Positions 31,416 through 34,350 of a stretch of 64,000 nt of DNA are shown here, piece by piece. A program made the translations under genes and the position numbers. This DNA comes from Sphingomonas hankyongi (GTDB taxonomy: Bacteria > Pseudomonadota > Alphaproteobacteria > Sphingomonadales > Sphingomonadaceae). How positions within the stretch are numbered: the stretch's first letter is position 1; each line of letters begins with the position of its first letter. The stretch spans positions 558,001-622,000 of the forward strand of contig NZ_JAMGBE010000003.1 of the NCBI RefSeq assembly GCF_023516575.1. Reading direction: 5' to 3'. The notes below the pieces were generated by a model. It saw nothing but the letters and a program-made list of their open reading frames with translations. It was not told where the DNA came from and made no database searches.

Positions 31416-31535
31416 CAGGCTCCGTCCCCGGCACACGAAACAGCAGTCAGCGTTCCCCCTAGCTCGGCGGCGTCACGCTAGCGCGGCGCAGTGCCAAACC
31501 GCAAGGCGCTTGCGCGAAACGCCTCGGCCAACCAA

Positions 31536-31877
31536 ATGCGTCGCATGACGAGGCGGGAGCAGTGGCGCAGATTCTTCGACAAGCCCTGGGTGGAATGGGG
31601 CCTGTTTGCCCTGGGCGTCGTCCTCGTCATCATCGGCATCATCGTCGCTCCGCTGCCCGGCCCCGGCGGCGTATTCTTCATTGCTCCTGGCGCGGCCCTG
31701 ATCCTGAGGACCAGCATGTGGGCCAAGCGCCACTATGTGAAATTCAAGCGCTGGCAGCCCAAGGCCGGGCGATGGACCGACTGGGCGCTGAGGCGGCCGA
31801 GCGCCCAACGGCGAGCAGCCCTCCGCAAGGCCGAACGCGAGGAAGTCGAACTACCATCGGAGGGTTCGAGCAATTGA
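31536..31877 (+). CDS. PGPGW-motif transmembrane protein
   Basis: A 113-residue protein with one long hydrophobic region (WGLFALGVVLVIIGIIVAPLPGPGGVFFIAPGAALIL, described in parts). The PLPGPGG segment is the mark of the PGPGW family of small putative membrane proteins of unknown function. The C-terminal half is very basic (RRPSAQRRAALRKAEREE). ATG 31536 is the first ATG; a GTG at 31491 and ATG 31545 are in frame. It is divergent from the ComM-type gene across 120 bases. Confidence 0.75.
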   Translation: MRRMTRREQWRRFFDKPWVEWGLFALGVVLVIIGIIVAPLPGPGGVFFIAPGAALILRTSMWAKRHYVKFKRWQPKAGRWTDWALRRPSAQRRAALRKAEREEVELPSEGSSN

Positions 31878-31958
31878 CTTCGCGCGCATGCTCGACTATC
31901 GGCGCGCTCGACAGCGGCTGCCTCATTTGGCGGCCCTTTTTCATTTAGAATTTGAGGC

Positions 31959-32426
31959 ATGAGCGATGAAGCGCACCTTTCAGCCGAGCAATCTCGTCCG
32001 CAAGCGCCGGCACGGCTTCCGCGCGCGCATGGCGACGGTCGGCGGCCGCAAGGTCCTGAACGCACGCCGCGCCCGCGGCCGCAAGAAGCTCAGCGCCTAA
32101 GCACGATCAAGAAGCGCGCCGATTTCCTTGCCGCCAATAGCGGCAAGCGTGCGTCCACGCCCGGCTTCATCCTGCTGGTGCGGGATCGCAAGGACACCGA
32201 CCAGGCGATGAGGGTCGGCTTCACGGTCACCAAGAAGATCGGCGGCGCCGTCATCCGCAACCGGATGAAACGGCGTTTCCGCGCTCTGGCCCGGGAAATT
32301 GTTCCAGCGCGAGGCTTTCCTGGTTCGGACCATGTGATGATCGGCCGCGCCAAAGGCATCGAGCGCGATTATGGGCAGCTGCGCGCCGAGTTGACGAGCG
32401 CGCTAGACAGGCTGCGCCAGCAATGA
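31959..32426 (+). CDS. rnpA: Ribonuclease P protein component, apparently enclosing rpmH
   Basis: RnpA is the protein cofactor of RNase P, which matures tRNA 5' ends. The conserved part starts at [20 protein letters not shown] (codons after 32105) and includes [25 protein letters not shown], the RNR signature. There is no ATG, GTG or TTG in this frame near that point. The only canonical in-frame start is ATG 31959, seven bases before the rpmH ATG, which makes rpmH completely internal and adds 46 Arg/Pro-rich residues. The alternative is a non-canonical codon just after the rpmH stop. The end overlaps yidD by four bases. Confidence 0.85.
31966..32100 (+). CDS. rpmH: 50S ribosomal protein L34
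   Basis: L34 is the smallest large-subunit ribosomal protein. The 44-residue product ([20 protein letters not shown]... ending KKLSA) matches the family completely. GAGG at 31954-31957 is eight bases before its ATG, an ideal ribosome-binding spacing, whereas the same GAGG is only one base from the rnpA-frame ATG at 31959. It is the first gene of the conserved rpmH-rnpA-yidD-yidC string. The possible promoter region (31878-31953) shows a TTGACT hexamer at 31875 but no convincing -10. Confidence 0.97.
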
Positions 32427-32635
32427 TCGCGCGGCTGCTCGTAATGGTTGCGCGCGGCTGGCAGCGCGGCCCGTCACAGATACTCCCCCCAAGTTGTCGT
32501 TATCAGCCGAGCTGCTCGGCCTATGCGATCACAGCGATTGAACGCTATGGCGCAGCCCGGGGCAGCTGGCTCGCGCTCAAGCGCATCCTGCGTTGCCATC
32601 CCTGGGGCGGCCAAGGCTACGACCCCGTACCGTGA
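32423..32635 (+). CDS. yidD: Membrane protein insertion efficiency factor YidD
   Basis: YidD is a small amphipathic protein that helps YidC insert membrane proteins. The 70-residue product has the conserved CRYQPSCSAYAITAIERYGAARG segment with three cysteines in the family pattern and LKRILRCHPWGGQGYDPVP at the end. Its ATG overlaps the rnpA stop by four bases (ATGA). The next gene is yidC, nine bases downstream, the usual arrangement. Confidence 0.95.
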   Translation: MIARLLVMVARGWQRGPSQILPPSCRYQPSCSAYAITAIERYGAARGSWLALKRILRCHPWGGQGYDPVP

Positions 32636-32643
32636 GGATTTAA

Positions 32644-34350
32644 GTGAACGACAGCAAGAACATGATCCTCGCGGTGGTGCTGAGCGCGCTCGTCCTGCTC
32701 GGATGGAGCTGGGCGGCCAACCGCTTCTTCCCGACCGCTCAGCCGCAGAGTACGAAGATAGAGAACGGCAAGCAGCAGCCGGTTTCCCAGCCGACGGCAC
32801 AGCCCCAACCGACTGCGGCAGCGCCAAAGGCCATGCGTGCTCGGAATGTGGTGCTCGCATCGACGCCTCGAATTCGCATCGTCACTCCGTCACTGCAGGG
32901 CTCGATCAACCTGAAGGGCGCACAGATCGACGACCTCACGCTCGTGACTCAGCGCCAGACGATTGCGAAGAATTCGCCGCCCGTCCGGTTGCTGTCACCG
33001 CTCGGCGCGCCGGGCGCCTATATCGCCTCGTTCGGTTGGACCGTGGAAGGCGCGCCCGCGCCCAATCTCGATACCGTTTGGACGGCGAGTAATCAGGTTC
33101 TCACTCCCGGCCGGCCCGTTACGCTGACCACAGAGATCAGCGGTGTCCGCTATGAGCAGCGGATCAGCATCGATGACGGCTATCTTTTCACGGTCGAGCA
33201 GCGGGCGACCAACGCATCTGGTCATCCGGTGATCGTCCGCCCGATCGGACTTGTCAGCCGCGCAAGCAAATCGAACGACCGCGACAGCTGGACGATGCAC
33301 GTCGGTCCGATCAGCGTCTTCGACGAAAAGGCCGATTATGACGTCGACTACAAGACCCTCGACGAGGGAGCGCAGAGCTTTGCAAATGTCAAAGGCTGGC
33401 TCGGCTTCACCGATCACTTCTGGCTGACCGCACTCGCCCCCGTCGACGCTCAAATGGCCGCGGATTTCCGGCGGTCGCCGAGCGGCGGCTACCAGGCCGA
33501 TTACGCGCTGCAGCCATCGACTCTTGGGCAGGGCCAGACCGTCACGTCCAAGGTCAACCTATTCGCGGGCGCGAAGGAGAAGACCTGGCTCGACCGTTAC
33601 GAAGACGCCGGGACCGTGAAGATCTCCAAGTCGATCGACTGGGGCTGGTTCGAATTCTTCATGCGGCCGATCTTCGACCTGCTGATGTTCCTCTTCCGCA
33701 CCGTCGGGAACTTCGGAGTGGCGATCATCTGCCTGACGCTGATCGTAAGGCTGATCATGTTTCCGATCGCCCAGAAGCAGTTTCAGTCGATGGCGGCGAT
33801 GCGCAAGCTGCAGCCCAAGATGAAGGCCGTTCAGGAGCGGTGGAAAGACGACAAGGCGCGTCAGCAGCAGGAAATCCTGAAGCTGTACCAGGAAGAGAAG
33901 ATCAACCCGGCGGCCGGATGCCTCCCCCTCCTCCTCCAGATCCCCGTCTTCTACGCGCTTTACAAGGTCCTGCTCGTCTCCGTCGAAATGCGGCACCAGC
34001 CCTTCGTCGCCTGGATCAGGGACCTTTCGGCGCCCGATCCGCTCACACCGGTCAACCTGTTCGGCCTGCTCCAATTCACGCCGCCCGCATTTCTCGCGAT
34101 CGGCGTCCTGCCGATCATGGTCGGAGCCACCCAGTGGCTGTCGATGAAGCTGAACCCGCAGCCGATGGACTCGGCGCAGGCGCAGATTTTCGCGATCATG
34201 CCGTGGGTGCTGATTTTTGTGATGGCGCCGTTCGCGGCCGGACTGCAGCTTTACTGGATGACGAACAACATCCTCACGATTGCTCAGCAATGGTGGCTAT
34301 ACCGCAGGTACGGCTTGCACCTGTCGGATACGCATCCGGTCCACACATGA
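32644..34350 (+). CDS. yidC: Membrane protein insertase YidC
   Basis: YidC inserts and folds inner-membrane proteins, alone or with SecYEG. The 568-residue length fits the Gram-negative type: an N-terminal signal-anchor helix (MILAVVLSALVLLGWSWAANRFF), a Q/P-rich linker, a large periplasmic domain (about residues 60-330) and the 60KD_IMP core with IKVSKS-like ISKSIDWGWFEFFMRPIF, then RKLQPKMKAVQERWKDDKARQQQEILKLY, and helices to residue 560. GTG 32644 is used as start (GTGAACGACAGC). It overlaps engB by four bases. Confidence 0.96.
   Translation: MNDSKNMILAVVLSALVLLGWSWAANRFFPTAQPQSTKIENGKQQPVSQPTAQPQPTAAAPKAMRARNVVLASTPRIRIVTPSLQGSINLKGAQIDDLTLVTQRQTIAKNSPPVRLLSPLGAPGAYIASFGWTVEGAPAPNLDTVWTASNQVLTPGRPVTLTTEISGVRYEQRISIDDGYLFTVEQRATNASGHPVIVRPIGLVSRASKSNDRDSWTMHVGPISVFDEKADYDVDYKTLDEGAQSFANVKGWLGFTDHFWLTALAPVDAQMAADFRRSPSGGYQADYALQPSTLGQGQTVTSKVNLFAGAKEKTWLDRYEDAGTVKISKSIDWGWFEFFMRPIFDLLMFLFRTVGNFGVAIICLTLIVRLIMFPIAQKQFQSMAAMRKLQPKMKAVQERWKDDKARQQQEILKLYQEEKINPAAGCLPLLLQIPVFYALYKVLLVSVEMRHQPFVAWIRDLSAPDPLTPVNLFGLLQFTPPAFLAIGVLPIMVGATQWLSMKLNPQPMDSAQAQIFAIMPWVLIFVMAPFAAGLQLYWMTNNILTIAQQWWLYRRYGLHLSDTHPVHT

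Follow-up and report, generated by a model that had tools for sequence, protein, structure and literature searches.

A putative nest of rpmH inside rnpA, with two starts behind one Shine-Dalgarno sequence, in Sphingomonas hankyongi and other Sphingomonadaceae

Where translation of rnpA begins is the question raised by a short operon in the 64,000-nucleotide stretch of Sphingomonas hankyongi DNA analysed here (the window; contig NZ_JAMGBE010000003.1, positions 558,001 to 622,000). Its genes stand in the order rpmH, rnpA, yidD and yidC (32644-34350), and the first two products are recognised above curated cut-offs, that of rpmH by PF00468 (83 bits against 25) and TIGR01030 (83.6 against 37.65), that of rnpA by PF00825 (72 bits against 22.3) and TIGR00188 (59.9 against 38.35). 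The RnpA domain match in the 155-aa open reading frame begins at residue 47 (Pfam) or 50 (NCBIfam). The first codon of the RnpA core shares the last base of the rpmH stop codon, and the rnpA frame reads GCT CAG CGC CTA AGC ACG ATC AAG across this junction. Upstream, the frame is closed by a stop codon 13 bases before the rpmH ATG, two codons above ATG 31959. Between that stop and the core, ATG 31959 is the only ATG, GTG, TTG or CTG, seven bases before the rpmH ATG (AUGAGCGAUG); a preliminary description of the locus had claimed this, and our recount agrees. It had also claimed an N-terminal extension on RnpA, which a start at ATG 31959 does create, although by our recount it has 47 residues and not 46. 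RnpA and L34 have one match each in this 99.96%-complete genome, and the RNase P protein is called indispensable in bacteria (PMC10941002), so the nested locus must supply it. The features of the region are collected in Table 1.

Table 1. Features of the rpmH-rnpA region in window coordinates, with the rnpA start, promoter and leader elements as proposed here
Feature	Position	Strand	Remarks
Candidate rpmH-rnpA promoter (TTGACT, 17 nt, TATCGG)	31874-31902	+	TTGAC and TA invariant in 10 aligned family members
Terminator-like hairpin and T run in the leader, 5' of the putatively shared Shine-Dalgarno	31916-31940	+	Also in non-nested loci
Shine-Dalgarno GAGG	31954-31957	+	Spacer of 8 nt to the rpmH ATG and of 1 nt to that of rnpA; presumably shared by both starts
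rnpA, 155 aa, proposed start ATG 31959	31959-32426	+	Includes a 47-residue N-terminal extension, out of frame across all of rpmH
rpmH (ribosomal protein L34, 44 aa)	31966-32100	+	Wholly within rnpA; start 7 nt 3' of the rnpA start
Conserved RnpA core (RNase P protein fold)	32100-32423	+	PF00825/TIGR00188; AlphaFold; RnpA matches in the PDB
yidD, next gene of the operon	32423-32635	+	Own ATG overlaps the rnpA stop (ATGA)

The junction was compared across relatives. RnpA was searched for in 61 genomes with the window's genus code, of which 59 gave a match, and in 149 with its family code, of which 145 did; 59 + 141 loci were scored, and L34 was found upstream in 195. Left out were the genomes without a match (2 of 61 and 4 of 149), a same-genus locus with no L34 on a short contig (L166), and from the family sample G067, three own-genus matches counted already and four loci in which the pattern found no L34 (L123, L126, L170 and L200). 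The best 30 of 275 matches from the class, 25 of them with L34, served as controls. A locus is called nested when, at -7 of the rpmH ATG, it has a start codon in the rnpA frame and this frame stays open into RnpA, openness being part of the definition; it is strictly nested (88 loci) when, in addition, no ATG, GTG or TTG lies between the rpmH start and the RnpA core.

Nested loci make up 100 of the 195 scored in the family and come from 29 of 90 genus codes, with ATG at -7 in 93, TTG in five and GTG in two. The preliminary description had expected such a nest to be unusual in an alphaproteobacterium, an expectation that fails for this family, in which the nest is common. It had also proposed comparing related sphingomonads, and in 88 of the 100 nested loci the frame inside rpmH is indeed kept open with no ATG, GTG or TTG before the core; the other 12 have another canonical start. 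The window's genus contributes 57 of the 100 and is nested at 57 of its 58 scored loci, with ATG (56) or TTG (1) at -7. A simple start loss would have been indicated by an ordinary ATG right after rpmH in close relatives; this is not the pattern in the genus, as 56 of the 57 lack any ATG, GTG or TTG 3' of the rpmH start. The other genera are represented by 43 nested loci among 137. The 95 non-nested loci fall into 62 genus codes, and both states occur only in the window's genus, through a single locus (L168) with ATG at -7, an RnpA match in two pieces and a genome 86% complete; we take it for a frameshifted assembly and not for a true out-of-frame locus. A sequence or assembly error in the window itself is ruled out by the same state in 57 same-genus loci, its own copy (L001) included.

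Where ATG stands at -7, the frame is in register and open into RnpA in 93 of 94 loci, against 28 of 101 without it (Fisher 7e-29, kinship ignored), and seven of those 28 carry TTG or GTG at this place. The common start sequence of nested loci is ATGAGCGATG, its AGC replaced in relatives by ACC, AAC, AGT or TCC; this second codon of the extension, which lies outside rpmH, encodes Ser in 85, Thr in 9, Asn in 4 and Pro in 2 of the 100 loci, serine being written both as AGY and as TCC. A further set of named loci (L032-L111, the best 80 of 437) lies outside the 195 and is biased, having been found partly with extension peptides, and some of its members probably come from the same genomes as other sampled loci. 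These best 80 of 437 include Sphingomonas, Sphingobium, Novosphingobium, Parasphingopyxis, Sphingomicrobium, Allosphingosinicella, Sphingosinicella and Hephaestia, which suggests that the family sampled is Sphingomonadaceae taken broadly. ATG is at -7 in 79, all open, and 47 of these have no downstream ATG, GTG or TTG. In the same biased set ATGAACG occurs at 26 loci, 22 of which possess a further canonical start, and where a second such start exists the one at -7 need not be the one used.

Five loci of the sample (L113, L205, L224, L268 and L280) have no start at -7, a frame open through rpmH and no downstream ATG, GTG or TTG. In the first three the frame has starts elsewhere, 16 to 22 nt ahead of rpmH, and these loci are perhaps nests with another spacing.

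Whether the open frame is also read can be asked of the wobble positions of rpmH. Each rnpA codon in the overlap would be made of the wobble base of one rpmH codon and the first two bases of the next, and a wobble T before a codon starting with AA, AG or GA gives a stop in the rnpA frame. In nested loci, T was found at 0 of 627 such stop-creating sites against 460 of 3059 other, harmless wobble sites; in non-nested loci the figures are 22 of 538 and 685 of 2954. Because non-nested loci also have a deficit of T at stop-making sites, part of it must be attributed to codon context, and by a fair estimate nested loci should show about 17 stop-creating Ts (0.041 x 0.150/0.232 x 627), not 94. Parsimony counts of changes were also taken from a tree built on L34, RnpA and YidD (220 rows and 233 columns; 95 of 217 inner branches below 80% support). 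For nested loci, 0 of 34 changes at risky sites involve T, compared with 303 of 692 changes at safe sites (Fisher 7e-9); for non-nested loci the counts are 22 of 62 and 485 of 797. At risky sites the two groups differ with Fisher 2e-5. A stop in the rnpA frame within rpmH occurs in 17 of 95 non-nested loci and in 0 of 100 nested ones, although openness partly defines the latter, and the remaining alternative frame of rpmH contains a stop in 195 of 195 loci.

The distance from the rpmH stop to the RnpA core takes 13 values in nested loci, from 2 to 86 nt. Each of them is 2 mod 3, although the tree requires this length to have changed at least 22 times, whereas in non-nested loci it is spread 48/28/19 across the three frames. 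An open frame in register belongs to the definition of a nested locus, but of all 94 loci with ATG at -7 L168 alone is out of frame. From rpmH codon 40 on, non-nested loci mostly offer a local ATG, GTG or TTG (80 of 95), and nested loci seldom do (11 of 100). In Sphingobium fontiphilum (L080), where -7 is occupied by TAG, there are two local ATGs, and three loci (L060, L082 and L095) retain both the -7 and the local starts. At four-fold sites the ratio of changes in rpmH to those in the rnpA core is 0.67 for nested and 0.80 for non-nested loci, a weak difference; openness appears to be the only clearly selected property of the extension sequence. Stop avoidance, the frame kept over 13 spacings and the local starts of non-nested loci say, as far as sequence comparison can, that the frame would be read from the -7 start. 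We consider it very probable that rnpA starts at ATG 31959 and runs through all of rpmH in another frame, on one mRNA and with one Shine-Dalgarno sequence.

The alternative that survives best, improbable as we judge it, is that rnpA starts by termination-reinitiation at a non-canonical codon just after rpmH and that the open upstream frame is incidental. The codon would be ATC 32106 or ACG 32103 in the window, as the preliminary description had considered, and CTG, ATC, ATT or ATA in relatives. One RefSeq record, from Sphingomonas parapaucimobilis, does place the rnpA start at an ATC that shares the final base of the rpmH stop, although there too ATG is present at -7 and the frame is open, and the junction holds a table-11 start codon in 68 of the 88 strictly nested loci (the first being CTG in 34, ATC in 26, ATT in 7 and ATA in 1). 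In the other 20 of 88, however, the junction is without ATG, GTG, TTG, CTG, ATT, ATC or ATA, and none of the candidate junction starts is kept throughout the 51 same-genus loci that share one spacing, where the position of the window's ACG reads ACC in 18 and ACG in 16 and that of its ATC reads CTT in 16 and ATC in 10. A junction start would, moreover, give no reason for a start conserved at -7, for the avoidance of stops along rpmH or for a frame kept over 13 spacings. Codon conservation and codon counts thus weaken this reading in favour of a start at ATG 31959.

It is very unlikely, in our estimate, that the open frame arose by chance from high G+C and a constrained L34, with shared ancestry mimicking conservation. 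Third-position G+C of rpmH is 0.865 in strictly nested against 0.776 in non-nested loci, and 78 of 95 non-nested loci are likewise stop-free in the rnpA frame within rpmH, both of which chance would accommodate; yet within these same nested genes T is frequent where a wobble T does no harm and missing where it would make a stop, which holds for changes counted on the tree as well, and a single-copy rnpA would be left without a canonical start. Hardly credible is an L34-RnpA fusion arising close to the rpmH stop through programmed -1 frameshifting. Although the same -1 frame relation holds in 100 of 100 nested loci, openness would be needed only near the 3' end of rpmH, whereas the risky sites without any T in nested loci include rpmH codons 7, 8, 12 and 28, the upstream start codon is kept all the same, and the window junction AGC GCC TAA has, judged by eye, no obvious slippery run.

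Some side loci deserve mention in their own right. In five non-nested loci (L176, L225, L226, L233 and L278) the stretch from the nearest in-frame stop to the RnpA core contains neither ATG nor GTG nor TTG, and in L278 no CTG either; these are candidates for real non-canonical rnpA starts. In Sphingomonas parapaucimobilis YK209 (L325), rpmH, rnpA, yidD, yidC and yihA lie on a plasmid-labelled record of 384975 bp (NZ_CP155753.1), which may represent a chromid, or else a part of the chromosome under a wrong label.

Upstream of the two starts, transcription may begin near 31909. The TATCGG of the candidate promoter matches TATAAT only in part, and the promoter is absent from the consensus-scan list; a loose TTGAC test was positive at every locus tested, class controls included, and gave no discrimination. 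A G+C-rich stretch follows the candidate -10 element in the window (31897-31910) and in relatives, with the consensus GGCGCCCCCAAC in 10 aligned loci, and presumably resembles the discriminators of stringently controlled promoters. Of the nested loci tested, 54 of 56 in the window's genus and 32 of 43 elsewhere have the leader hairpin with its T run, as have 66 of 95 non-nested loci and 2 of 25 class controls; the hairpin could act as an attenuator, or else terminate transcription of the gene upstream. Changes in its stem are mostly one-sided and the finder demanded pairing, so that covariation lends it thin support; leader folding was no more stable than in shuffled sequences (z 0.85), and an Rfam search over 31500-32800 gave nothing relevant, with one sub-threshold chance match on the other strand.

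The GAGG of the window ends 8 nt before the rpmH ATG and 1 nt before that of rnpA, which upholds the earlier remark that it suits the former and is too near the latter. A match of at least four bases to the Shine-Dalgarno sequence precedes the rpmH ATG by 5-10 nt in 72 of the 88 strictly nested loci and by 4-10 nt, with three outliers, in 81 of the 95 non-nested ones. The spacing distributions of nested and non-nested loci overlap and we claim no shift between them; as the register is about the same in strictly nested and non-nested loci, the element appears to be placed for rpmH, with rnpA second. A start codon 1 nt from a Shine-Dalgarno sequence should initiate poorly. Most likely, one Shine-Dalgarno sequence spaced for rpmH serves both starts. 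We propose that on a single mRNA, whose single Shine-Dalgarno is set for rpmH, the rpmH AUG would take most of the initiation, and that the rnpA AUG, lying in the spacer and nearly touching the Shine-Dalgarno, would be used less often; such unequal use would suit a far greater need for L34 than for the RNase P protein. What the sequences show is a conserved start, an open frame that avoids stops and keeps its register, and a lack of other canonical starts; the use of ATG 31959 by ribosomes, the sharing of the Shine-Dalgarno and the ratio of L34 to RnpA expression are inferred.

For the protein itself, the AlphaFold model (62 sequences) gave block-mean pLDDT values of 50-57 for residues 1-40 and of 93-98 from residue 51 on. 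The model has the RnpA fold, matching RnpA entries of the PDB in a Foldseek search, the best being 6d1r (E 1.8e-9), with chain 7uo0_A of the E. coli holoenzyme at E 1.2e-4. The sequence of the extension is mostly dictated by L34 and varies at wobble sites, which gives it the look of a tolerated tail. This Arg/Pro-rich stretch of 47 residues is probably a disordered by-product, tolerated and selected mainly against stops, and would have no function of its own.

Beyond the family, genomes were searched with exact rpmH-start patterns, which miss rpmH genes beginning otherwise. For ATG-start rpmH, the class sample of 385 genomes gave ATG at -7 in two, each a member of this family. The phylum sample of 398 gave it in nine genomes, eight of which belong to the family; in the ninth (L319), from outside it, the frame does not lead into RnpA. 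GTG-start rpmH with ATG or GTG at -7 was found in 5 of 385 class genomes, four open into RnpA and one closed (L320); of the open ones, three (L321-L323, all of one genus) carry an ATG further on. A locus from another family of the class (L324) has GTG at -7 of a GTG-start rpmH, is open into RnpA and has later only CTG; it is possibly another separate nest. Among the class control loci ATG at -7 occurs in 0 of 25.

No strict ATG nest was found in the sampled genomes of the rest of the class, which suggests that the nest of this family probably had an origin separate from that of Thermus. On the tree, nesting changed at least 14 times, and a few nested loci stand near the family base; the large non-nested group looks like loss of the nest, with weak tree support. 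We lean towards a second, convergent dual-start nest, old in Sphingomonadaceae and partly lost, in which the choice of start at one Shine-Dalgarno sets the ratio of L34 to RnpA.

The same two genes would then be nested, with a different start spacing, in dozens of sampled species of one alphaproteobacterial family. Loci with both kinds of start, together with the apparent losses, offer a comparative series for the nesting and un-nesting of genes, and the family should provide easily grown hosts in which to study how one ribosome-binding site feeds two frames. The annotation of rnpA starts deserves checking family-wide, since the one annotated record in this comparison uses ATC despite an in-frame ATG at -7. 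If the account given here is true, nesting of rpmH in rnpA is a repeatable and reversible evolutionary solution and not an oddity of Thermus. No report of such a nest in sphingomonads was found in titles and abstracts of the open-access literature.

The rnpA/rpmH overlap of Thermus was reportedly described by Feltens et al. in 2003, and to our knowledge the absence of a canonical rnpA start after rpmH is among its defining features; in the window, too, rpmH lies within the rnpA frame and no canonical rnpA start follows it. As described in PMC9841429 and PMC4892627, where Thermus is the named case of rpmH inside rnpA, the same two genes are concerned, rpmH is wholly nested, and two AUGs stand behind one Shine-Dalgarno in the same relative frame (offsets of 4 and, in the window, 7, both 1 mod 3). 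The likeness to Thermus drawn in the preliminary description is therefore good for the full nest and the relative frame and not for the start spacing, which is 4 nt in Thermus (AUGGAUG, PMC9841429) and 7 nt here; the window nest, moreover, belongs to an alphaproteobacterial family and is predicted to yield both proteins. The ordinary operon, given as rpmH-rnpA-yidD-yidC in PMC10941002, has the gene order of the window, and 80 of 95 non-nested family loci have a canonical rnpA start at or after the end of rpmH, unlike the nested ones. According to a 2022 paper (PMC9841429), Thermus rnpA-rpmH was the only ambiguous start described in bacteria before those of E. coli, AUGUG and GUGUG in pqiA, tamA and narQ. 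These likewise open two frames from neighbouring codons; there, by the same account, the start codons overlap and the alternative reading frame is short, at least for pqiA, whereas in the window both products are core cellular proteins and one gene would lie complete inside the other.
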